From Planctomycetota bacterium (GTDB lineage Bacteria > Planctomycetota > Phycisphaerae > Sedimentisphaerales > Anaerohalosphaeraceae): a stretch of DNA of 64,000 nucleotides. Positions 52,401-63,999 of the stretch are shown here, piece after piece (within the stretch, counting starts at the first letter, position 1; every line of letters starts with the position of its first letter). The notes under the pieces were generated by a model, which did no database searches, had not been told where the DNA came from, and saw only the letters and a program-made list of their open reading frames with translations. The stretch covers positions 62,001-126,000 of the forward strand of contig JAKPDO010000050.1 of NCBI GenBank assembly GCA_029552545.1, given 5' to 3'. A program made the translations under genes and the position numbers.

Positions 52401-53483
52401 ATGGCAGAGTTCTCTGACAATACAAACCGTCCTTCAAAAACACCTGCAGACAGCCGGGTTCAAACGCGGTTTCTGCTGATGCCCAACCAGGCCAATCCGT
52501 TTGGGACGGCCTTCGGAGGAGCGGTAGCGGCCGAGATTGATATGGCGGCTTCGATGGCGGCCCAGCGGCATGCGGGCGGGCCGGTGGTAACGGCGGCGAT
52601 GGATACGATTCAGTTTGAACGTCCGATTCAAATCGGCGATCAGGTGATGCTGGATGCGGTGGTCAGCTATGCCGGCCGTACCTCGATGGAGGTGGCGGTG
52701 GAGGTGTATTGTGAAAATCCGCAGCAGGGCCGCCGGGCCTTGGCGACAACGGCGTATCTGACCTTTGTGGCGGTGGACCCGCAGACCGGAAAACCCCGTC
52801 CGGTTCCGGCCCTTGTTCCGCAAACGCCGGAGGAAAGGAAGCGGTACGATGAGGCCTTCGTTCGCGTGCAGGCCCGTCAGCATCTTCGCCGCAGTCAGGG
52901 CGAATCCCGGCCTGCGGACGAACGGTCGGCAGGAGCGGAGGTGGAGGTGCTGCGGCCTCTTTTGTGGCGGCAGGATGTGGTGTTTCGCGGAGAGCAGTTG
53001 AGTCCGGAGGGACGAAAGAAGATTGCCCGGGCCCTGCGGACGCTGCATTCGCTGGAGTTGATGGCGACGACGATTTATCGGCTTCAAATCGGGTCGGAGC
53101 CGACGGAGCTCAATCGAGAACTGATTGCGGCGATGTGCAATGAACTGACTCATTTGCAGGATTTTCAGACGCAATTGTACGAATACGGTTTTCGTCCGAG
53201 CCCTTTGCGGCTGTTCTGGCAGGGAGTTGGGGTTGTGTTCGGGCTTGGGTCTCGCTGGGCGGGGGCGAGATGGATTTTGAAGACAGGCATTTGGGTCGAA
53301 TCCAAGGCGGTTGAGCATTACAGCCGGCTGCTTGAGGCGGCGCCCTGGGAGGAGGCATCCCGGCGGATGCTGCGGAAGAATCAGGAAGATGAGCAGGGGC
53401 ATATCCGGACGTGGCAGCGGCTGCTGAAGGAGATGGAGACGCAGAAAAAAAGCCGCCGGAAAGACGATTCCGACGGCTCTTAA
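52401..53483 (+). CDS. Hotdog acyl-CoA thioesterase fused to a COQ7/ferritin-like diiron domain
   Basis: 360 residues in two domains. Residues ~20-130 are an acyl-CoA thioesterase hotdog fold (NQANPFGTAFGGAVAAEIDM, IQFERPIQIGDQVML). Residues ~205-345 look like a COQ7/ferritin-like four-helix domain: E219 (HSLELMA), E248xxH251 (NELTHLQ), E300 (WVESKAVEHY) and E331xxH334 (DEQGH), that is two ExxH motifs plus two further Glu, the full six-ligand pattern of a diiron oxidase site. A linker rich in Pro/Glu lies between. No stop or frame break separates them. The fusion is not one I recognise. AAGGAGCCGTAAA precedes the ATG. Partner genes unclear. Confidence 0.78.
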   Translation: MAEFSDNTNRPSKTPADSRVQTRFLLMPNQANPFGTAFGGAVAAEIDMAASMAAQRHAGGPVVTAAMDTIQFERPIQIGDQVMLDAVVSYAGRTSMEVAVEVYCENPQQGRRALATTAYLTFVAVDPQTGKPRPVPALVPQTPEERKRYDEAFVRVQARQHLRRSQGESRPADERSAGAEVEVLRPLLWRQDVVFRGEQLSPEGRKKIARALRTLHSLELMATTIYRLQIGSEPTELNRELIAAMCNELTHLQDFQTQLYEYGFRPSPLRLFWQGVGVVFGLGSRWAGARWILKTGIWVESKAVEHYSRLLEAAPWEEASRRMLRKNQEDEQGHIRTWQRLLKEMETQKKSRRKDDSDGS

Positions 53484-53502: not shown

Positions 53503-54984
53503 TCAGCGGGTTTCACTCTTGATGCGCGGCTGAGGGGCCTGCGGCGTTGAAAAGACGGTGTTGGCCAGATGCCGCTGTTCTTCCTCGCTGAGGATTGGAT
53601 TTTTCACGATTGTGGGGGTAATAAAAATCACCAGTTCACTGTTCATGGTGCTTTCGCCCTCAGAACGGAAAAGGAAGCCCACCAGAGGCAGATTGCCCAA
53701 CAGTGGGATTTTGTTGATTTGCTGAGAAACATCCTGTTTTTTCAAGCCGCCGATGACGACGGTCTGTCCGTCCCGAATCAGGGCGGTGGTCATGGTTTCC
53801 CGGCTGGCGATGATGGGCTGCGGGATGGGATTGCTGATGCCGGTGATGACAACTTCGCCGGTACGGACGCTGAATTTGGGATTCAGCAGCAGCCGGATGA
53901 GGCCGTCGCGGGTCAGGTGGGGCACAACACGCAGCTCAATGCCGACTTCGCGGAAGGCCGTGGTGCCGATGCTGCCGCCGCCGCTGCTTTCCGTTAGCTC
54001 CTGATAGGGAAACTCTTCGACGATTTTGATTTCGGCCTGCACATTGTCCAGCACGAGGATGCGCGGGTTGGCCAGCAGTTTGGCCCGAATGTCTTCCTGT
54101 TTGGCTTTCAGGGCGGCATCGAGCCGAACGTGGTCATTAAGAATGCCGAAGCGAAAGATGCCGTCGGTGCTGGAGGTTTTTCCGACATCGCCGGAGAAAA
54201 CACTAGTGATGGCCGGGTTGGTTACAGTACCCTGCACGGCGTTGCCGATGGCGCCGGAGACTGCTGTACCATTGGAGTACGAGGTCCCCTCCAGATCATA
54301 GAGGGTGTTGGTTCCCATCTGCCATTCGACGCCTAAATCCAGGTTGGCACGCGAGGAAATATCGTAGATTTTGGCCTCGACAAGAATCTGCGGGGTAATG
54401 CGGTCGATTTCTTCAATGAAGGAATCGATCGCCTTGATTTTGCTTTCCACATCCGTGACGATGATGTTGCTGGTTCCGGGGTTGGCGGAGATAGAGCCCT
54501 GTTCGGTGACGAACTTGCGAAGGGCCGCCTCCACGTCTTTGACGTCGGCATAGGTAATCCGATAGACGCGGCTGATGACTTTCTCCCGCACATCAACGAT
54601 GTCGCTGGTGGGCATGACCCGAATCATGTTTTCCGTGGCGACATAGCTGTATCCGTGGGCTTCGAGGATGTTGGTCAGGGCCTCACCGAGAGGGACATCA
54701 TTCAGGGTGGCTGTTACAGTTCCCTCTACTTTGGGGCTTTTGATGATGTCGACGTTGGCCTGTCGGGCCAGAATGCGCAGCACATCGTCAATCGGAGTGT
54801 CCCGAAAGTCCACGCTGACGGTCTGCTGCATGCGCTGCTGAACAGGACTGAGGCGTTCGGCCCGCATTCCGGCGGGGTCCTCCGTCTGCACAGCGTCCTG
54901 TCCCCATGCAGCGAGTGCCGGCAGAAGCAAAAGGCCGGCCGGCAAAATGATTTTCCAAAGGGTCTTGTTTCCTGTCTTTTCCAT
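53503..54984 (-). CDS. pilQ: Type IV pilus/type II secretion secretin (PilQ/GspD-like)
   Basis: 493 residues. Outer-membrane gated channel. Signal peptide (LWKIILPAGLLLLPALAAWG), STN-like N-terminal domain (VSVDFRDTPIDDVLRILARQ), a KH-like N1 domain (NPGTSNIIVTDVESKIKAID) and the secretin barrel (PQILVEAKIYDI, GIELRVVPHLTRDGLIRLLL, LIRDGQTVVIGGL, PLLGNLPLVGFLFRSEG, ELVIFITPTIV). Starts 30 nt after the PilP-like gene. It is the last gene of the minus-strand pilus operon. Confidence 0.92.
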   Translation of the reverse strand: MEKTGNKTLWKIILPAGLLLLPALAAWGQDAVQTEDPAGMRAERLSPVQQRMQQTVSVDFRDTPIDDVLRILARQANVDIIKSPKVEGTVTATLNDVPLGEALTNILEAHGYSYVATENMIRVMPTSDIVDVREKVISRVYRITYADVKDVEAALRKFVTEQGSISANPGTSNIIVTDVESKIKAIDSFIEEIDRITPQILVEAKIYDISSRANLDLGVEWQMGTNTLYDLEGTSYSNGTAVSGAIGNAVQGTVTNPAITSVFSGDVGKTSSTDGIFRFGILNDHVRLDAALKAKQEDIRAKLLANPRILVLDNVQAEIKIVEEFPYQELTESSGGGSIGTTAFREVGIELRVVPHLTRDGLIRLLLNPKFSVRTGEVVITGISNPIPQPIIASRETMTTALIRDGQTVVIGGLKKQDVSQQINKIPLLGNLPLVGFLFRSEGESTMNSELVIFITPTIVKNPILSEEEQRHLANTVFSTPQAPQPRIKSETR

Positions 54985-55014: not shown

Positions 55015-55698
55015 TTACGGCTGGACGGTCTGGGTCCAGCGTTTGCCGTCCTTCTCAAATTCAACAGCATCTTTGGTAATGCTGACAATTTTGATTCCGT
55101 TGATCGTATCTCCTACACAGACAATCTGATTTCCGATGATAGCGGACGGATTGGTTTGGCTGAAGACAATGCCCCGCACGATGCAGCTGGGCGTGCCCGT
55201 GCCGCCGTCAGGGGTTCGGGCGGCTGCATCCGGCGCCATCGGGTCGCGAATCTGTTCGGGCCAGGGTTCCGGCCGGACCCATTTGGCTGTTTCAGCGGTC
55301 GAAGGCGCGGAGTTTTCAGACGGGACCGCGGCAGCCGCTTTTTTGGGGGGTGCTGCCGGTGTGCGGAACACAAAAAGGAGGACCGCAATCAGAACAAAGG
55401 ACAAAACGCCGACCAGAATCAGCATCTGGGTTTGTTTGGCGTCTTTTTTGTTCTTTTTGCGGGTACGCGCCCCGGCGGGGGATCGTGTCTCTTTGGCGGA
55501 GGCCGGTCGGGCGGCGGGAGCGGCTGACGGTGCCGAGACTCCGGAGGAGGCCGGTGCGGGCTGCGGGGTATAGGTGTTCGCGTCCGCAGCAGCGGCGGCC
55601 GGAGCCGGTCCGACTGCGGCGGCCGGAGCTGCCGACGGAATCGGAGCTCCTTCAAATATAAAGGCAACTTTCTTGTGCAGTCCGGTTTTGGGTTTCAT
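55015..55698 (-). CDS. PilP/GspC-like periplasmic connector
   Basis: 227 residues. A basic, Ala/Pro-rich N-terminus, one membrane segment at about 100-122 (MLILVGVLSFVLIAVLLFVF), then a Pro-rich stalk and a small C-terminal beta domain: IRGIVFSQTNPSAIIGN region, VCVGDTINGIKIVSI and EFEKDGKRWTQ, resembling the homology region of PilP/GspC/GspB that contacts the secretin. The motif IRDPMAP precedes it. Overlaps the ParA-like gene upstream by 47 nt. Not conserved enough to name with certainty. Confidence 0.6.
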   Translation of the reverse strand: MKPKTGLHKKVAFIFEGAPIPSAAPAAAVGPAPAAAAADANTYTPQPAPASSGVSAPSAAPAARPASAKETRSPAGARTRKKNKKDAKQTQMLILVGVLSFVLIAVLLFVFRTPAAPPKKAAAAVPSENSAPSTAETAKWVRPEPWPEQIRDPMAPDAAARTPDGGTGTPSCIVRGIVFSQTNPSAIIGNQIVCVGDTINGIKIVSITKDAVEFEKDGKRWTQTVQP

Positions 55699-56449
55699 AG
55701 GTCAACTCATCCGTTAGGGATTGATATTCAAGAGCGCCGAAGCTTTGCGGTGCGTAGGTGATGACGGATTGACCCGCACTGGGGGCTTCGGCCAGACGCA
55801 CATTCCGATGGATCACAGTCCGGAAGACCAGCGGACCAAAGTAGTCGCGCATTTGTTCTTCGACCTGCCGGCTCAGGAGCGTTCTTCGTTCCACCAAAGT
55901 CAGCAGAATGCCCCGAATGCGCAGATTCGGAGCAAACCGCTCGCGAACGACGTCCACGGTTTCCATCACCTGACGCAGCCCCTCGAGGGCATAATACTGC
56001 GTCTGGACGGGAATAATCAGTTCGTCGGCGGCCACCATGGCATTGAGCGTCAAAAGATTGAGCGAGGGGGAGCAGTCGATCACACAGTAGTCAAACCGGG
56101 CGGCTGTCTCCTGAAGCAGACGGCGGAGCACATATTCCCGGTCGGTCATTCGGAGCAGCTGGGATTCGGCTCCGGACAGCAGGACGTTGCTGGGGGCCAG
56201 CAGAAGCGTCGGCAGGCATGTCGGCTGCAGGATTCGCTCGAAAAGAACCTGCGGGTTGACCAGGGCCTCGTAGATGGTCTGTTCGAGTGTATCGGGCTGA
56301 AGTCCGAAGGCCAGCGTGGCGTGTCCCTGCGGGTCGAGGTCCACCAGAAGCGTTCGATAGCCGCGTGAGGCCAGCGCCGCCGCCAGATTGACGGCGGTCG
56401 TGGTTTTCCCGCATCCTCCTTTTTGATTGGTGATTGCAAAGGTCTTCAT
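55652..56449 (-). CDS. ParA/MinD-like ATPase
   Basis: 265 residues. Deviant Walker A NQKGGCGKTTTAVNLAAALA with the second Lys typical of ParA; LLVDLDPQGHATLAFGL (switch region) and DYCVIDCSPSLNLLTLNA (Walker B). No ParB gene lies next to it, and it is translationally coupled to the PilO-like gene (ATGA overlap at 56446-56449), so a role in placing or regulating the pilus machine is more likely than plasmid partition (inference). C-terminus is extended over the start of the PilP-like gene. Confidence 0.85.
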   Translation of the reverse strand: MKTFAITNQKGGCGKTTTAVNLAAALASRGYRTLLVDLDPQGHATLAFGLQPDTLEQTIYEALVNPQVLFERILQPTCLPTLLLAPSNVLLSGAESQLLRMTDREYVLRRLLQETAARFDYCVIDCSPSLNLLTLNAMVAADELIIPVQTQYYALEGLRQVMETVDVVRERFAPNLRIRGILLTLVERRTLLSRQVEEQMRDYFGPLVFRTVIHRNVRLAEAPSAGQSVITYAPQSFGALEYQSLTDELTYETQNRTAQESCLYI

Positions 56450-57057
56450 AAAGAAGGTTCCTCCCTGAGAATAGAAGACACGGCCGCAGGGGCCGAGGAA
56501 TCCGGCTGTATCAGAAACGATACGAGGAGTTTTGCGGAATGCAGTTTGGACTGCTGGCGGCTTCGTTCGATGGAGGCGCTTTCCACAAAGACCGTCGGTC
56601 GGCTTCGTTCGAGGGCATTGACGAAGGATGCAAACTGCTGGAAAGTGCCGCGGAAGGTGATGGTCTGCCAGATGCGTTTGAGTTTGGTCTGGCCGGAATC
56701 CTCCGCCGCCCAGACATCCTCGCGCGTTTTGCCGGCGTATTCACTCAGACCGGCGGTATTGGCCAGCCGGCTGATTTCAAAGAGGACTTTGTCCTGTTTT
56801 CCTGAGGGCACCAGGAAATCGTCGATTCGCTGCTGCAGTTCATTCAGCAGTTCCTGCTGGCGCTGCTGCGTATCCGGCTGAGAGGCCAGACGGGCGACGC
56901 TGACCCGGTCGCTGCTGACGGTGAGGTCCTGATGGACTGCCTTGAGACGCTCGGTCTGAGGGGTGAGCACCAGGGTATAGAAGCTTGCGGCCAGCAGAAG
57001 CCAGGGGCCCCAGACGCAGGCCACATAAATCCAGTATTTTCGACTTTTGAAAATCAT
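56446..57057 (-). CDS. pilO: PilO/GspM-like inner-membrane protein
   Basis: 203 residues. Short cytoplasmic N-terminus, one membrane helix at about 9-30 (WIYVACVWGPWLLLAASFYTLVL), a coiled-coil stalk (LLNELQQRIDDF) and a C-terminal ferredoxin-like domain (RIWQTITFRGTFQQFASFVNALERSRP, VESASIERS). Size and plan fit PilO. Starts 15 nt after pilN. Confidence 0.75.
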   Translation of the reverse strand: MIFKSRKYWIYVACVWGPWLLLAASFYTLVLTPQTERLKAVHQDLTVSSDRVSVARLASQPDTQQRQQELLNELQQRIDDFLVPSGKQDKVLFEISRLANTAGLSEYAGKTREDVWAAEDSGQTKLKRIWQTITFRGTFQQFASFVNALERSRPTVFVESASIERSRQQSKLHSAKLLVSFLIQPDSSAPAAVSSILREEPSL

Positions 57058-57072
57058 AAGGTTGATCCGTTT

Positions 57073-57714
57073 TTATTTTTGTTCAATCAAAGGACATCGG
57101 ATTTCATACAGGAGAAGATTTTGTGAATCGGTTGCCTCCTGCCGGGACTGGATTTGGATTTCCTGAGCCACGGAGGACAGGCAGGGGGCCGACCGAAGTT
57201 TCTGAATGTAGCCGTTGACGGCCTGATCGCTTTCGGGGCGGTTCGGAGCCGCCAAGGTCAGCCGAAGGGTGCGCTGGATGACCTGGATATAGGATACCTG
57301 ATTGTTTTTGGGGTCCGTTATTTTGCGGCGGACGGGCTGGTAGGCGATATCCAGTTCCGTAAAGAACACCTCCGGCGGGAGCGTCTGCACCAGTTCGGCC
57401 AGCAGGGGCGAGAGCGGCATTTCCAGCCGCAGGGCGTCCTGCACCGTTTTGATGCGGTGACGTGCGGCCAGGATGTTCTGCTGAACGGCTTCGTACCGCT
57501 GGAGGTCTTCGGCATGTTCGGCAATATGCTGGAGGTTTTGCCGATGGATGGCCAGTTCGGTTCTCATCAGGGCTGCATGGCTGAGCCATTGGCCGGCCAG
57601 AAGACCGGTTGCCAGAAGCGGAATGACAAAGGGCACGGCGGCCAGGGCAATAGCGCCCGGCCGGCTCCTTTTCGGCAATCCCTGTCCCTGTAATAAATCA
57701 ATCCGAAATTGCAT
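57073..57714 (-). CDS. pilN: PilN-like inner-membrane protein
   Basis: 213 residues. Short N-terminal segment (FRIDLLQGQGLPKRSR; PilN usually begins with INLLP that binds PilM, here IDLLQ), a membrane helix at about 22-45 (AIALAAVPFVIPLLATGLLAGQW), a coiled coil and a C-terminal fold (LAELVQTLPPEVFFTELDIAY). Start overlaps the pilM stop by one nucleotide. Confidence 0.75.
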   Translation of the reverse strand: MQFRIDLLQGQGLPKRSRPGAIALAAVPFVIPLLATGLLAGQWLSHAALMRTELAIHRQNLQHIAEHAEDLQRYEAVQQNILAARHRIKTVQDALRLEMPLSPLLAELVQTLPPEVFFTELDIAYQPVRRKITDPKNNQVSYIQVIQRTLRLTLAAPNRPESDQAVNGYIQKLRSAPCLSSVAQEIQIQSRQEATDSQNLLLYEIRCPLIEQK

Positions 57715-58784
57715 CAGAAGGTCCTCATGGCCAATCCAGCTGCAACCGTGAAAACCGGACCGGCCAGTTTCAGTAAAGCTTCCTGGGCCGGCGGGCTCTG
57801 GAGATTCAGAAAGCGGAAGGGATTAAATACTTCCGTCTCTACACCCAGTGTGCCGGCCATAAGTTCCGTAAACGGCTGACTCATCGCCCATCCGCCTGAT
57901 AAATAGAGCTTGTTGACCTGGCAGTCGGGATTTTGCGTTACATAATAGCGGAGCGTATCGCTGATGTCGTTCAGGCATCGGGCGGCGGCGTTTTTCAGGG
58001 CCGCCGAGATCTGCGGCGGAATCGAATCCATCTGTCCGAAGAGAGATTGTCGAATGGTTTCTTCGTCCAGACCGGTTTGCCGGCGGATGGAGTCCATTAT
58101 GTCGAAACCGGCATAGGTCAAGTCCCGGATGAACGGGATGCCGTTGTCCCCGAGAATGGTGACGGTGATAAACCGATGGCCCAGATGGATGAGGGTTCGG
58201 CAGGAGGAGGCGTCCTGCGGGATGCAGTGGCACAGGCAGTTCATCGCCGCCAGTCCTTCGACATCCATCAGCATCACTTTGCCGCCGGCGCTGTGAACCC
58301 GGCGAATGGTTCGTTCGACGGCGTCGCGCATGGCAACGACCAGAAAGCCCTGATGCCCTTCGGCGGAAGAGCGGACGGTTTGAAAGGCCACGATGCTCTG
58401 GTCGGCATCAAAGGGGCTCATCTGCTGGGCTTCAAGCTCTACGGCCTTGCTGAGCGCTTCCTGCGGGATGAGAGGAAAGCGGAAAGAACGGGTGACGACC
58501 TCCGGTCCGCTCTGGGCGCAGACCACGTAGGGAGTGTTTAAGTCCGCCGTATTCAGGCATCGGCGAACGGCCTCCGTTACGGAAGCGTCATCTGGATTTT
58601 GAGGGTTCTGAGCGGGCGGCAGGTCAAACTGACAGGCCCCCGTGACGGTGAACTTTCGGTTCCGCCAGGTTCCCTTGACCAGTTTGACCGAAGAGGAGCC
58701 GATATCCAGTCCGGCCCATTCGACGGCGTTCATTTCCAGCCGTTCCAGCAGAGAACGATATTTTTGTTTTACAGCCGTCAGCAT
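57714..58784 (-). CDS. pilM: PilM-like actin-fold ATPase
   Basis: 356 residues. Cytoplasmic partner of PilN. GLDIGSSSVKLVKG is the phosphate-1 loop of the actin fold; FPLIPQEALSKAVELEAQQMSPF is a PilM signature; VMLMDVEGLAAMNC and LYLSGGWAMSQPFTELM (adenosine motif) complete it. First gene of the pilMNO set, 12 nt after a large PilX-like gene. Confidence 0.9.
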   Translation of the reverse strand: MLTAVKQKYRSLLERLEMNAVEWAGLDIGSSSVKLVKGTWRNRKFTVTGACQFDLPPAQNPQNPDDASVTEAVRRCLNTADLNTPYVVCAQSGPEVVTRSFRFPLIPQEALSKAVELEAQQMSPFDADQSIVAFQTVRSSAEGHQGFLVVAMRDAVERTIRRVHSAGGKVMLMDVEGLAAMNCLCHCIPQDASSCRTLIHLGHRFITVTILGDNGIPFIRDLTYAGFDIMDSIRRQTGLDEETIRQSLFGQMDSIPPQISAALKNAAARCLNDISDTLRYYVTQNPDCQVNKLYLSGGWAMSQPFTELMAGTLGVETEVFNPFRFLNLQSPPAQEALLKLAGPVFTVAAGLAMRTF

Positions 58785-58796
58785 AGGTTTTCCTGT

Positions 58797-60539
58797 CTAT
58801 TGAGCCAGAGCGGTTTGGGTTTCCGTCCAGGCGCCCGGCACCGGCACATACTTGCCTTTGAGCCAGATATTGCCGGGCAGGATGCCTGTCAGCAGGCGTT
58901 CGTCCCAATAATAGGATTTCAAATATCCGTCCTGCCCTACCACACCCACAACTCCTCGCACGGCTTCAGTAATGCTGCCTCGCAAAATCAGCTGGTCATT
59001 GTAGGCATTCACCGTTTTTCTTCCGCCGTAGTTGTTTCTTCTTACGTTTTCAGCTCCCCATCCGCCTCCGCCGACCGTAACAGCGGCCTCCACGACAGTC
59101 GGATTCGGCAGAAGCCGCACATGAATCGGTTTGGCGGCGCTTTCTCGATTTCCAATCGGCACATAGGTGAATCCTGCCGGTTCTTTCGGCGTAGTATCCA
59201 CATAACTGTATTCCGTCATTCCAGGATCGACGATTTTGATGACCCCTTTGGCGATAAGTCCGAGAACATTGGGGTTTTCAGGGTGCGGCAGGCCGTTGGC
59301 TTGTCGAGGATAGATGCGTCCGGAATCGTCCTGGTCCGATATTGTAAGGGAGTCGGCTATCCAGATATTGCCGGTGGCAACGATGGTAATCTGACCCTGG
59401 ATGACATCGGTTTGCTGGCCGAGGGTGCGTCCGCTTCCGATAATCACGTTTCCGTCCACAAAAATTTGTCCGGCGGGAGCGGAGGAAACCCCTCCGAATT
59501 CCTGGGAGACATAGGTTTGCGGCAGGTCCACGATAAACCGGTCGCCGTTGGTGTCCGCATTGGAGCGGCGGACGTGGTAGGCGTAAATCGGATAGCGTTC
59601 AAATTCTTCTCCGTCGCTTTTGGGTTTGACGCGGAAATCATATGTATAACTGTCCTTGGACTGCATAAACCCGCGGACGGTGCAGTTGTTGGTGATGCAG
59701 ACTTTGCCCAGACCATTTTCGACGAAAAACTCCAGATGAACCGCCGGCTGAGGCAGTTTCAATACGGGAGCATCGGCTACAGGCGTAAATCGGAATCGGG
59801 CATCCGTCGTATCGCGGAACCGCTGAATCTTGCTGTCCAGTCCGCTGTTGTCCGTAATCCGAAGCATGGGCTGGTCGAAATAAATGCCGCTTTTGAAGCA
59901 ATTCATTACCGAAACGTATTTGTCCAGACCGCCGGCTGTATAGCGGGATTCGCCCATATAGACCGGACGAAGAAAGACCGGATATCCCTGGATTTTGATG
60001 TCGCGTACATCCGGGCTGTCATTTTCTTTATTGATTTCCACCGGCAAATCCACGACTTCGCCGGTTGCAAAGACTACGTCAATAAAGGAAGAGCCGCCGA
60101 CTGGGGCCTTGCATTTGCCCATGGCCCAGCCGTTGATGGCCTGCACTACATAGGTATGAATGGTCTTTTCATAGATGCCGGAGCGTCCGATTGCCGTGAT
60201 TTCAAAGATGGGCTTGGCCTGCAGAAAGGTGGCCAGGGAAACGGAATAAGACCCCTGGCTGTCCGGAAAGGAGAGGGTTTCTTCGAAGGTACCGGCAGCC
60301 AGAGCGGACAGCAGGTCGGGCTGCTGACTCATTGCGAACATAGCCCGCTCGTAAGCGGCTTCGGCGGCCGCCAGAGCGGCGGTCTGCCGCTTCTGCTGGA
60401 CGGCCTGAACATGGGCACCTTCAGCACTCTTGAGAACGCCGATGGAAAAGATGGACAATATCAGCAGCAGGACGACGGCGACAATCAGGGCTGAGCCGCG
60501 CTGTCGAATGACCGGTTTTGTAGTTCGATATCCTTTCAT
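58797..60539 (-). CDS. Very large PilX-like pilus assembly protein, copy 2
   Basis: 580 residues. The N-terminus RQRGSALIVAVVLLLILSIF is a PilX/minor pseudopilin helix (GSALIVAVVLL), followed by AAAEAAYERAMFAMSQQPDL. The remaining ~500 residues are a beta-rich domain shared only with the gene upstream: VCITNNCTVRGFM, GQITIVATGNIWI, YPRQANGLPHPENPNVLG, and the ending YYWDERLLTGILPGNIWLKG. Start ATG 60539 has GGGAG upstream; the frame extends 67 codons further upstream without similarity. Large domain not recognised; it may sit at the pilus tip. Spacing to the neighbour is 13 nt. Confidence 0.8.
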   Translation of the reverse strand: MKGYRTTKPVIRQRGSALIVAVVLLLILSIFSIGVLKSAEGAHVQAVQQKRQTAALAAAEAAYERAMFAMSQQPDLLSALAAGTFEETLSFPDSQGSYSVSLATFLQAKPIFEITAIGRSGIYEKTIHTYVVQAINGWAMGKCKAPVGGSSFIDVVFATGEVVDLPVEINKENDSPDVRDIKIQGYPVFLRPVYMGESRYTAGGLDKYVSVMNCFKSGIYFDQPMLRITDNSGLDSKIQRFRDTTDARFRFTPVADAPVLKLPQPAVHLEFFVENGLGKVCITNNCTVRGFMQSKDSYTYDFRVKPKSDGEEFERYPIYAYHVRRSNADTNGDRFIVDLPQTYVSQEFGGVSSAPAGQIFVDGNVIIGSGRTLGQQTDVIQGQITIVATGNIWIADSLTISDQDDSGRIYPRQANGLPHPENPNVLGLIAKGVIKIVDPGMTEYSYVDTTPKEPAGFTYVPIGNRESAAKPIHVRLLPNPTVVEAAVTVGGGGWGAENVRRNNYGGRKTVNAYNDQLILRGSITEAVRGVVGVVGQDGYLKSYYWDERLLTGILPGNIWLKGKYVPVPGAWTETQTALAQ

Positions 60540-60552
60540 AGCCGTTTCTCCC

Positions 60553-62313
60553 TCAGGGAAGCCGCTGGGCTGTTTCCTTCCATCCGCCGGGGATTGGAAT
60601 GTATTTGCCTTTGAACCAGAGATTGCCCGGGACGATGCCGCGGCTGAGCCGTTCATCGAGGTAGTATTGTTTGACGTAGCCGTCTCGTCCGATGACGCCG
60701 ACCACGCCGCGGATGGATTCAGCCAGCATTCCGCGGACAATCAGGTTATCCGTCGGTCCCGCATCTTCTTTGCGTCCGCCGTATCCGTTTCGCTCGACGT
60801 TCTCTGCTCCCCATCCTCCTCCGCAGGCGGTGACGGCGGCCTCGACAATCATCGGGTCGGGCAGATGCCGATAGGGTGAACCGGCCGGCTGACCTTTGTC
60901 CAGCAGCGCCACCGGCTGATAGACGGCGCCGGCGACAGTCCCCGGGGCTCCGAGGGAGGCGGCCAGTCCCGGGTCAATGATTTTGACTACACCCCGTGCG
61001 ACCAGACCGAGGGCATTGGGGTTGTCCGGATGCGGCAGACCGTTGGCCTGACGAGGATAGGAGGCGCCGCTGTCATCTCGGTCGGAGACCTGGATGGGAG
61101 CGGCGACCCAGATATTCCCCGTGGCGGCGACGGTGATTTTTCCCTGCACGGTATTCAGCTGACGCACGTTCGGCAGGGAGGCGGTTTCAGAGGCACTGCC
61201 GATAATGACATTTCCGTCCACAAAAATCTGTCCGCCGGCAGGACCTTCCGTTGAACCGTAGCGGGGAACCACGTAGGTATTTTGGACCGGCAGAACGATT
61301 TGCTGTCCTGCAGCGGACGCATTGGCAGGGATATAATGAAATCCGTAAACAGGGTATTTTTCAAAGAGGGTTCCGCCGCTGCCGGGTTTGATTTTGTAGT
61401 CCCAGGTGTCCGTGTCGGAAACGGTTCGCTGATAGCCGCGGACGGTGCAGTTGTTGGTGATGCGGACATAGCCGATATTGTCCGTGCCCACGAAAAACTC
61501 CAGCTGGACGGCGGGCTGTCCGAGCGGCACCAGATTGTTTTTCACCGGCCGGAAAATGAGGTTCGGCTTCTGCTCCTGAAGCATCTGGACAAACCAGTCG
61601 AATTTCAGCTGGACGGCTTCTTCATCGCTGATTCGGCTTTTGGGCTGATCAAAAAAGATGCCGCTGTCGAACAGGTCGATGATGCGGCGGTATTTGTCTG
61701 TGCCGTCGGAGGCGTATCGGGATTCGCTCATCGAGACCGGTTCGAGGAACAGCGGGTCCGGCTGCACGTAAATATCCGGATTGCGGTCGTCCGGCGGCTG
61801 AACCGTATTGATGTGAATCGGCATCGCGATGATTTCGCCGTTGGCAAAATAGACTTCCGCCGTGGAGGAGGGGCCGGAAGGGACGCGGCACTGGCCCATC
61901 TCCCAGCCGGTCATCGCCTGCACGAGAAAGACATTCAGGGTGCTGACCATCTGTCCGGACTGTCCGCGGGCGGCTACCTCGAAAACCGGCCGTGAATCGG
62001 CAAAAGAGGAGAATCGAATCTGGTAGGAGCCGGAGCTGTCCGGAAAGGAAACGGTTCCCTGGGGGGATTTTTTCTCGAGGGCGACAAAGAGGTCGGGCTG
62101 CTGGCTCATCCAGAAGACGGCCTGCTCATAAGCCGCTTCCGCGGCGGCCTGAGCGGCGGCCTTCCGTTTGAGCTGGATGCTGTATTCCTGCGCGTCCTGT
62201 GCGGCCTTGAGCATGCTCAGTCCGAGCAGCGATAAAATCACCAGCAGGAGCACGGCCAACACCAGTGCGGATCCTGCCGGTTTTTGCGTTCGGATGTTTC
62301 GGGTCCGGTCCAT
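60553..62313 (-). CDS. Very large PilX-like pilus assembly protein, copy 1
   Basis: 586 residues. Paralogue of 58797-60539: N-terminal GSALVLAVLLLVILSLLG helix, AAAEAAYEQAVFWMSQQPDL, then VRITNNCTVRGYQ, GKITVAATGNIWV, YPRQANGLPHPDNPNALG, ending YYLDERLSRGIVPGNLWFKG. Ordinary PilX proteins are near 150-200 residues, so the ~400 extra residues form an unusual domain. A pair of such genes points to tandem duplication. Starts 11 nt after the preceding prepilin. Confidence 0.8.
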   Translation of the reverse strand: MDRTRNIRTQKPAGSALVLAVLLLVILSLLGLSMLKAAQDAQEYSIQLKRKAAAQAAAEAAYEQAVFWMSQQPDLFVALEKKSPQGTVSFPDSSGSYQIRFSSFADSRPVFEVAARGQSGQMVSTLNVFLVQAMTGWEMGQCRVPSGPSSTAEVYFANGEIIAMPIHINTVQPPDDRNPDIYVQPDPLFLEPVSMSESRYASDGTDKYRRIIDLFDSGIFFDQPKSRISDEEAVQLKFDWFVQMLQEQKPNLIFRPVKNNLVPLGQPAVQLEFFVGTDNIGYVRITNNCTVRGYQRTVSDTDTWDYKIKPGSGGTLFEKYPVYGFHYIPANASAAGQQIVLPVQNTYVVPRYGSTEGPAGGQIFVDGNVIIGSASETASLPNVRQLNTVQGKITVAATGNIWVAAPIQVSDRDDSGASYPRQANGLPHPDNPNALGLVARGVVKIIDPGLAASLGAPGTVAGAVYQPVALLDKGQPAGSPYRHLPDPMIVEAAVTACGGGWGAENVERNGYGGRKEDAGPTDNLIVRGMLAESIRGVVGVIGRDGYVKQYYLDERLSRGIVPGNLWFKGKYIPIPGGWKETAQRLP

Positions 62314-62324
62314 AAGGTTGTGTC

Positions 62325-63008
62325 CTATCGGGGCCAGTTCATTCGCAGCAGGACGGAGGTTTTGACTTCTACGGATTCGCCTTCATTGTCGGTCAGGGTC
62401 AGATTCATCCGGACGGAGCCCATTCCGACCCCCCCGACGACGTTGTGGCTGAAAATCTCCGTTCCTTTGGAGACATCCACAAATTCGCTGAGCGTGACGG
62501 TTCGCAGCAGGGAACTGGTCCGGCGGATGCCTCCGGAGATTCCTCCGACTCCGTTGACGACGGTGCCGTAATCGACTTTCAGCCGTCGTCCTTCCAGATA
62601 AAAGAGGGCGTAGTGCGTTCCGGTGTTGGTGACTTCCAGTACATCCGCATTGGCGGCCGCCGGGTCGAACGCATTTTCCCAGTAGCGAAATTCGACGGCG
62701 GAACCGGAGGCGATTTCCTGATTAATCGGCGGCTGAGCGACGGTGTAAACACCGTTGATGATTTTATAAACGGCATAATTGCTTCGATTGGACTTTCGTC
62801 CGATGGTGCTGAAAGCGGTCATGGCGGCCAGCGCATCCTGCCGAATCGGTTTGTGAATGCTGTTGTAGGTCTGGCGGAAGCTTCGAGAGCCGCCGGCCGC
62901 CAGGATGGTAACGGCCAAAATCGGGATAATCAGAATCGCCAGCGTGACGACTACTTCGAGCAGCGTAAAAGCGCCGAACAGGCGAGATGTTTTTTTGCAG
63001 CGATTCAT
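62325..63008 (-). CDS. Prepilin-like protein (PilW/PulJ type)
   Basis: 227 residues. Prepilin N-terminus: basic leader NRCKKTSRLFGAFTLLEVVVT with the Gly/Ala-Phe-Thr-Leu-Leu-Glu pattern, cleavage before Phe or after Gly-Ala; helix AILIIPILAVTILAAGG. The rest is a beta-rich globular part. ATG 63008 follows AAGGAGG by 8 nt; the longer frame to 63050 was rejected. Minor pilin of the same operon. Confidence 0.82.
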   Translation of the reverse strand: MNRCKKTSRLFGAFTLLEVVVTLAILIIPILAVTILAAGGSRSFRQTYNSIHKPIRQDALAAMTAFSTIGRKSNRSNYAVYKIINGVYTVAQPPINQEIASGSAVEFRYWENAFDPAAANADVLEVTNTGTHYALFYLEGRRLKVDYGTVVNGVGGISGGIRRTSSLLRTVTLSEFVDVSKGTEIFSHNVVGGVGMGSVRMNLTLTDNEGESVEVKTSVLLRMNWPR

Positions 63009-63021
63009 ACCGGATGCCTCC

Positions 63022-63519
63022 TTATCCGCCGGATTGGTCTCTTCGGACATACGTGGACGAGGTGAACGTCGGGTCGGCGGCGGTCGGTTCGAGGTTTTTG
63101 TAATCCCGCCGCCAGCGAATTGTGACGCGGATTTCCCGGAGGGTTACCCCCGCTTCTGCATCTGTGTCAATGTCGGAGTACCAGAGCTGTGCCCGCATGG
63201 GAAAGCCGTTGAAGATGACCCGGTAAATCGGGTCGCTGCCGATTTGTTCCAGACCGAGGTCGAGATCCGTTGGGTCATAAAATTCATTGCCGCCGGTGCT
63301 TTTCCAGTCGTCCAAAAGCAGCTGAGCCAGCTGCGCCGCGACAATTTCGGCTCGGGCGCTGCGGGCCCGCTTGACGGCGTGATACTGGTACGTCAGGGCT
63401 CCCAGGGATGCAATGGCCAAAATCACCGTGGCAACAATCAGTTCCAGCAGGGTGACCCCGGCTGATTTTCGGAGATGTCTGTGTCTGAAATGTCGGCCTG
63501 TCAGACCCAGGTCTGTCAT
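63022..63519 (-). CDS. Prepilin-like protein (PilV/PulI type)
   Basis: 165 residues. Leader RHLRKSAGVTLLELIVATVILA has the Gly-Val-Thr-Leu-Leu-Glu pilin start, with Glu5. Downstream AQLLLDDWKSTGGNEFYDPTDLD and a basic end. AAGGAGG lies upstream of the ATG. Second minor pilin of the operon. Confidence 0.82.
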   Translation of the reverse strand: MTDLGLTGRHFRHRHLRKSAGVTLLELIVATVILAIASLGALTYQYHAVKRARSARAEIVAAQLAQLLLDDWKSTGGNEFYDPTDLDLGLEQIGSDPIYRVIFNGFPMRAQLWYSDIDTDAEAGVTLREIRVTIRWRRDYKNLEPTAADPTFTSSTYVRRDQSGG

Positions 63520-63609: not shown

Positions 63610-63999
63610 TTATTCCCATCGTCCGTCCACGTAGAGGGTCTTCGACCCGCTGGGAGCATTGGGCTGGCTGCCGGTGACCGTAATCTGGGCGTTGCCGTTG
63701 GCATCGACACTGTCGATATTGTAGTCGCCCGGGACAAAGTAGGTTCCGGTCAGGTCTGCATCCTGAAAGCCCAGGGCCTGACGGGTGGCGGCTACGCCCA
63801 GACTGCCGGTGGGCGCTGTGCCGTGTTCCACAAAATACACCCGGACGGCGGACTTGATGGTGCCGGCGGTGGCGTTGGCTTCCGCCCACTTGGCGGATTC
63901 AATCCGGCCGCGCATCAGCGGGATGGAGGCCGCCGCCAGGATACCGACAATCAGGATGACGACCATCAGTTCAATCAGTGTGAATCCTTTTCTTCCTGT
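63610..63999 (-). CDS. Type IV pilin-like protein (5' end outside window)
   Basis: Partial, 129 residues plus the stop. The open frame continues to the right edge and reads TGRKGFTLIELMVVILIVG, the canonical prepilin cleavage site (GRKG/FTLIE) and helix, followed by a small globular domain (KWAEANATAGTIKSAVRVYF ... GSKTLYVDGRWE). The internal ATG at 63966 is within the helix and is not the real start. Probably the major pilin or a T2SS major pseudopilin. First gene seen of the operon; the promoter lies outside. Confidence 0.85.
   Translation of the reverse strand, partial: TGRKGFTLIELMVVILIVGILAAASIPLMRGRIESAKWAEANATAGTIKSAVRVYFVEHGTAPTGSLGVAATRQALGFQDADLTGTYFVPGDYNIDSVDANGNAQITVTGSQPNAPSGSKTLYVDGRWE

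Follow-up and report, generated by a model that had tools for sequence, protein, structure and literature searches.

Why does a planctomycete type IV pilus (T4P) operon encode two unusually large pilin-like proteins side by side, and what is the large domain that each of them carries? The question is raised by genes A (60553-62313, minus strand, 586 aa) and B (58797-60539, minus strand, 580 aa), arranged head to tail in the window, by which we mean the whole 64,000-nucleotide stretch of contig JAKPDO010000050.1 that was analysed. An earlier, sequence-only reading had described them as an old tandem pair of PilX-like proteins of about 580 residues, in which a helix is followed by some 500 residues of an unrecognised domain, possibly a tip adhesin. 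The two open reading frames are real: that of A has both start and stop, and the ATG of its paralogue B (60539) lies 13 bp past the A stop. The proteins are 49% identical across 559 aa (BLASTP, E 6e-178) and the genes 59.5% identical over aligned bases. Two of the three motifs said to be shared are indeed found in both proteins, NNCTVRG at A287 and B284 and YPRQANGLPHP at A419 and B410, whereas PGNIWLKGKY is exact in B alone (B555) and reads PGNLWFKGKY in A (A562).

The genes around the pair, all on the minus strand, identify its place. Upstream lie a major-type, GspG-like pilin with the sequence GFTLIE and Glu5 (63610..63999, start beyond the window edge; N_methyl, 34.5 bits), a PilV/GspI-like minor pilin also having Glu5 (63022..63519; N_methyl, 27.9 bits; TIGR02523 pilV, E 1e-7, under its cut-off) and a PilW/GspJ-like minor pilin (62325..63050), assigned on a weak N_methyl match and a position kept in related loci. 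Directly after B comes pilM (57714..58784; PF11104, 136 bits, E 1.7e-39), followed by a pilN-like gene (57073..57714; weak PilN match and position), a pilO/T2SSM-like gene (56446..57057; PF10741, 26.2 bits), a gene for a ParA-like ATPase between pilO and pilP (55652-56449), a pilP/GspC-like gene (55015..55698; weak T2SSC and CdsD_C matches and position) and the gene of a PilQ-type secretin (53503..54984; TIGR02515, 263.7 bits, just below the cut-off of 284; PF00263, 150 bits). Just outside the window the same strand encodes a hybrid histidine kinase, a PilB-type ATPase with an MshEN domain, and PilC. The order of this complete cluster (kinase, PilB, PilC, major-type pilin, PilV-like, PilW-like, A, B, pilM, pilN, pilO, ParA-like, pilP-like, pilQ) thus gives the large genes the position that GspK/PilX has in a T4P cluster. 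The gene of the hybrid histidine kinase/response regulator adjoins the pilB-type gene (L102, 2163-3944 and 3944-5338, both minus strand); the kinase, together with MshEN, a domain of the c-di-GMP-binding type, suggests two-component and c-di-GMP control of the pilus. The order pilM-N-O-ParA-P recurs in loci L051 and L067, and the ParA-like gene, keeping its position there, seems to belong to the cluster as a constant component. The 3.1 Mb genome G000 yields 14 T2SSE matches (type II/IV secretion ATPases), four of them PilT-sized, which points to several separate T4P/T2SS-like systems.

The PilX-like character and unusual size attributed to these pilins are borne out. The Pfam PilX_N model matches A and B at 20.3-20.4 bits, under its curated cut-off of 25.5; pilins with DUF7305 that occupy the same slot score low with this model as well. 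No Pfam or NCBIfam model matches residues ~100-586, the NCBIfam matches to A and B are limited to weak N-terminal ones to tapirin and ComGG, and a sequence search of PDB chains returned no solved relative. A match to biotin carboxylase (E 0.13) was judged to be due to chance. In an alignment of 53 family members the prepilin-type site is G or A in 51 rows, the other two being truncated, and in A the prepilin-type G14 precedes the helix. Glu5 is present in none of the 51 members with a complete N-terminus, mature position +5 of A being Leu and not Glu; it is present in the three other pilins of the window (in the PilW-like one, provided that cleavage occurs before FTLLE).

A structural model changed the picture of a helix followed by an extra domain. 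AlphaFold2, run for A on the 53-row alignment, gave a model with pLDDT 90.9 and pTM 0.87, and A and B are predicted with high confidence to be complete pilin folds with a barrel-like beta-solenoid inserted between the penultimate and last strands of the sheet. In the model of A, the N-terminal pilin helix (residues 15-71; 62101..62271) leads into a four-stranded pilin sheet (residues 85-132; 61918..62061; strands 85-90, 93-105, 108-119 and 122-132), then come the many short strands of the inserted solenoid (residues 133-560; 60634..61917), which includes NNCTVRG and YPRQANGLPHP, and, at the end, the pilin sheet's final strand (residues 571-584; 60562..60603), all on the minus strand. The C-terminal stretch PGN-IWLKGKY...W is modelled as running into this last strand of the pilin itself. 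Alignment of the model by VIA with Streptococcus sanguinis PilA (7o5y, Z 10.8), which supports the four-stranded sheet, takes in residues 42..586, a span that points to the C-terminal strand as the one completing the pilin sheet; Thermus PilA2 (6qvf) aligns with Z 8.2. The solenoid of B (58881..60146, minus strand) was folded alone and reached pLDDT 92.6.

Comparison with solved structures singled out one protein. In a Foldseek search of the PDB with A, chains of 6QVI (ComZ) were the sole significant matches (E 1.9e-7, 9.5e-7 and 1.2e-5, prob 1.00; next match, E 1.0). VIA-align placed A on 6QVI with Z 15.0 and 323 residues aligned; over the whole chain the two superpose loosely (rmsd 10.9, TM about 0.26), so the orientation of the domains may differ. 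For the B solenoid alone the top match is again ComZ (residues 132-503; Z 14.0, rmsd 3.9 over 232 residues), with ice-binding proteins next, and its Foldseek match to ComZ is weak (E 0.011, prob 0.25). Identity in the ComZ-fold alignments is 10-12%. The insert is novel by sequence and of known fold: the domain is unrecognised as far as sequence libraries go, yet in fold and insertion point it agrees with Thermus ComZ.

In ComZ (6QVI) the beta-solenoid lies between the penultimate and last pilin strands, position 5 is Gly, and the closest folds are GspK and FfIBP; the protein has been argued to be located at the tip, and it binds the neighbouring pilin PilA2 and DNA (PMC6561018). Thermus thermophilus ComZ, the top PDB fold match both to the whole of A and to the B solenoid, thus shares with them large size, lack of Glu5, the same solenoid insertion and a gene beside those of GspI/J-like pilins. 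It differs in sequence (about 10-12% identity), and the planctomycete operon carries a tandem pair next to pilM. Since no sequence homology was found (6QVI was absent when PDB chains were searched with hmmsearch to E 10), we class A and B as working like ComZ and not as its orthologues.

Other pilin families resemble A and B in part. The tip minor pilins GspK and PilX share their fourth place in the H-I-J-K and FimU-V-W-X gene orders, the PilX_N-like helix and the lack of Glu5, but PilX is small, and the insert of GspK is helical and located at another strand (PMC6561018). DUF7305 PilX-like proteins of other Planctomycetota have a pilin module homologous to that of A and B (hhalign, E 1.5e-20, residues 2-166), occupy a PilX-type slot beside PilV/PilW-like genes and show solenoid-type repeat sequence; they differ in being shorter (about 410 aa) and in an insert that cannot be aligned by profile with the A/B insert, and PF23981 (DUF7305) has no match in A, B, 18 family members or genome G000. 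The tapirin gene is located in a T4P locus, and tapirin (Caldicellulosiruptor, 4WA0) likewise joins a pilin-like N-terminal helix to a beta-helix domain. Membership of A and B in the tapirin family was rejected by sequence: NF051896 matches residues 7-71 only, at 18.7 bits against a cut-off of 600. The fold match of the B solenoid is weak (Z 5.7 over 160 residues). In the modular pilin PilB of S. sanguinis the extra functional module has been argued to be exposed at the tip (PMC8179133), as we propose for A and B, but that vWA module comes after the pilin module, to which it is linked, whereas the solenoid is inserted in the sheet. Among the papers searched, none dealt with pilins of Phycisphaerae and none with DUF7305.

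How widespread is this architecture, and how old is the pair? Full-length homologues occur in about 21 of 59 relatives' genomes, and 57 loci came from scanning GTDB species genomes, all of them labelled Planctomycetota/Planctomycetes, Phycisphaerae, Phycisphaerales or Sedimentisphaerales except one labelled 'uncultured bacterium'. When 393 genomes of the phylum were searched with a profile, full-length matches (E < 1e-200) were confined to Sedimentisphaerales, the order of the window; outside it nearly all matches ended at about residue 133-140, that is, with the pilin module, and three short ones were to the insert alone (E 1e-5 or weaker). The pilin module is thus widespread and the A/B insert restricted to the order. 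Within the family, B and other lineages are 51% identical in the solenoid and 35% in the pilin sheet, and conservation of the solenoid across the order is even and strong; that the solenoid is more conserved than the sheet argues for a constant ligand.

The expectation that the pair would be found beside pilM in other planctomycetes held in so far as pilM lies directly downstream of the large gene in 37 of the 49 testable loci (PilV/PilW-like genes being upstream in all 49) and pairs recur, but most relatives have a single copy. Two tandem copies are present in 4 of the 6 genomes of the genus; orthologues of A were found in G002, G004 and G005 and those of B in G001-G005, with the same pair in the close relative G004 (L033) at 97% and 95% identity and B alone, directly preceded by the PilW-like gene, in G001 and G003. 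In the 53-member tree A-type and B-type proteins form separate clades (each 100/100), A grouping with L036/L037 (100/98) and B elsewhere, the L042 pair has an independent origin, and in L044, L046 and L037 each pair draws its members from different clades. This topology makes the duplication older than the genus and implies that doubling occurred more than once; tandem doubling is uncommon but recurrent. The pair is therefore old, as had been supposed, an assembly duplication being ruled out by the DNA identity of 59.5% and the fully supported orthologue clades. Larger units are also repeated: the PilV-PilW-large trio is duplicated as a unit in L037 (6764-12833) and present as three sets in L051 (4240-13491), and in these two loci and L067 (2724-8071) tandem cassettes within one operon bring large pilins of different insert families next to each other. 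In L057, L061, L064, L068 and L086 a PilV-PilW-large cassette stands by itself, pilM being absent from its vicinity, like a tip set kept in reserve.

What, then, do A and B do? Glu5 of pilins is believed to neutralise the N-terminus of the tip-side neighbouring subunit, and GspK-type subunits lack it. From the absence of Glu5, the bulk of the proteins and the gene order we infer a position at the pilus tip, and with it a receptor role; A and B are probably a ComZ-like family of tip receptors, minor pilins of the GspK/PilX/ComZ slot. A or B would sit atop the two minor pilins (PilV- and PilW-like) of the preceding genes, the filament would be exported via the PilQ secretin, and the solenoid would be presented outwards as the receptor. 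That both of these old paralogues lack Glu5 suggests that they may form alternative tips or a joint tip. The tip location in the original suggestion of a tip adhesin is plausible, and adhesion is one of two live options for function beside a DNA receptor.

As the leading specific form of the ComZ-like tip receptor, we tentatively put forward a receptor for DNA in natural transformation, functionally equivalent to ComZ; by analogy with that protein the ligand may be DNA. Consistent with this, no solved fold other than ComZ matches significantly, and ComZ agrees in insertion point, kind of neighbours and lack of Glu5; the genome encodes ComEC, DprA and a ComEA-like TM+HHH protein, and several basic residues (e.g. 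K237, K444, R514, K548 and R555) are kept in nearly all 53 members. Likeness of fold to ComZ shows no function, however, the DNA-contacting lysines of ComZ cannot be mapped at such sequence distance, and the family is mildly acidic (median pI 5.5). Of the 59 relatives 56 have ComEC, irrespective of whether they have the large gene, and so it does not tie A and B to DNA uptake.

A surface or polysaccharide ligand is also possible, if somewhat doubtful. The solenoid would then be a tip adhesin that binds particles or polysaccharides, such as sediment or the polymers of plants or algae, A and B recognising two different surfaces. Tapirins, which bind cellulose, and ice-binding-like adhesive domains provide parallels: ice-binding proteins have the closest folds after ComZ (Z about 12 over residues 132-554 of A), the tapirin domain and the N-terminal tapirin model give the weak matches described above, and in relatives the same operon slot holds another solenoid-type insert, DUF7305, with similarity to pAdhesive_15, 'ice-binding-like adhesive'. 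Typical adhesins vary fast, in contrast to this evenly conserved solenoid, and the tapirin likeness is limited to the N-terminal helix by sequence and weak by fold. A search for PilY1 gave no match in the 59 relatives, control genomes being equally empty. A type II secretion-like machine, in which A and B would cap a pseudopilus in the manner of GspK and recruit secreted enzymes through the solenoid, is improbable, for despite the resemblance of PilO and PilP to T2SS M and C proteins, the lack of a visible retraction ATPase in the cluster and the several T2SSE-containing systems of the genome, PilM, the PilQ-type secretin (TIGR02515 above GspD) and the PilB-type ATPase (TIGR02538 best) indicate a T4P, and PilT-sized ATPases are encoded elsewhere. 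Such probability as DNA and surface ligands leave falls to a purely structural or priming role, or to recruitment of a secreted substrate.

Whatever its ligand, the A/B family is real, conserved, novel in sequence and of a known structural kind, the solenoid-insert tip pilin. This family, which lacks annotation and spans a planctomycete order with few cultured members, thereby gains a fold and a place, and ComZ-style domain insertion is seen not to be limited to Thermus. Our data suggest as a general rule that the tip slot of these pilus operons is formed by a PilV-PilW-large pilin cassette, the outermost subunit of which bears interchangeable solenoid heads, so that a receptor function can be probed directly on the purified solenoids. 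That the solenoid tip pilins serve throughout Sedimentisphaerales as a DNA-uptake receptor, with tandem paralogues as a two-component or switchable tip, we regard as rather unlikely; if true, it would mean natural transformation in these planctomycetes. Beyond the secretin gene, the open reading frame at 52401-53483 (plus strand) has, as judged by eye, an acyl-CoA thioesterase-like start (NQANPFGTAFGGAVAAEID) followed by a segment of ferritin/COQ7-like appearance, and is possibly a fusion.
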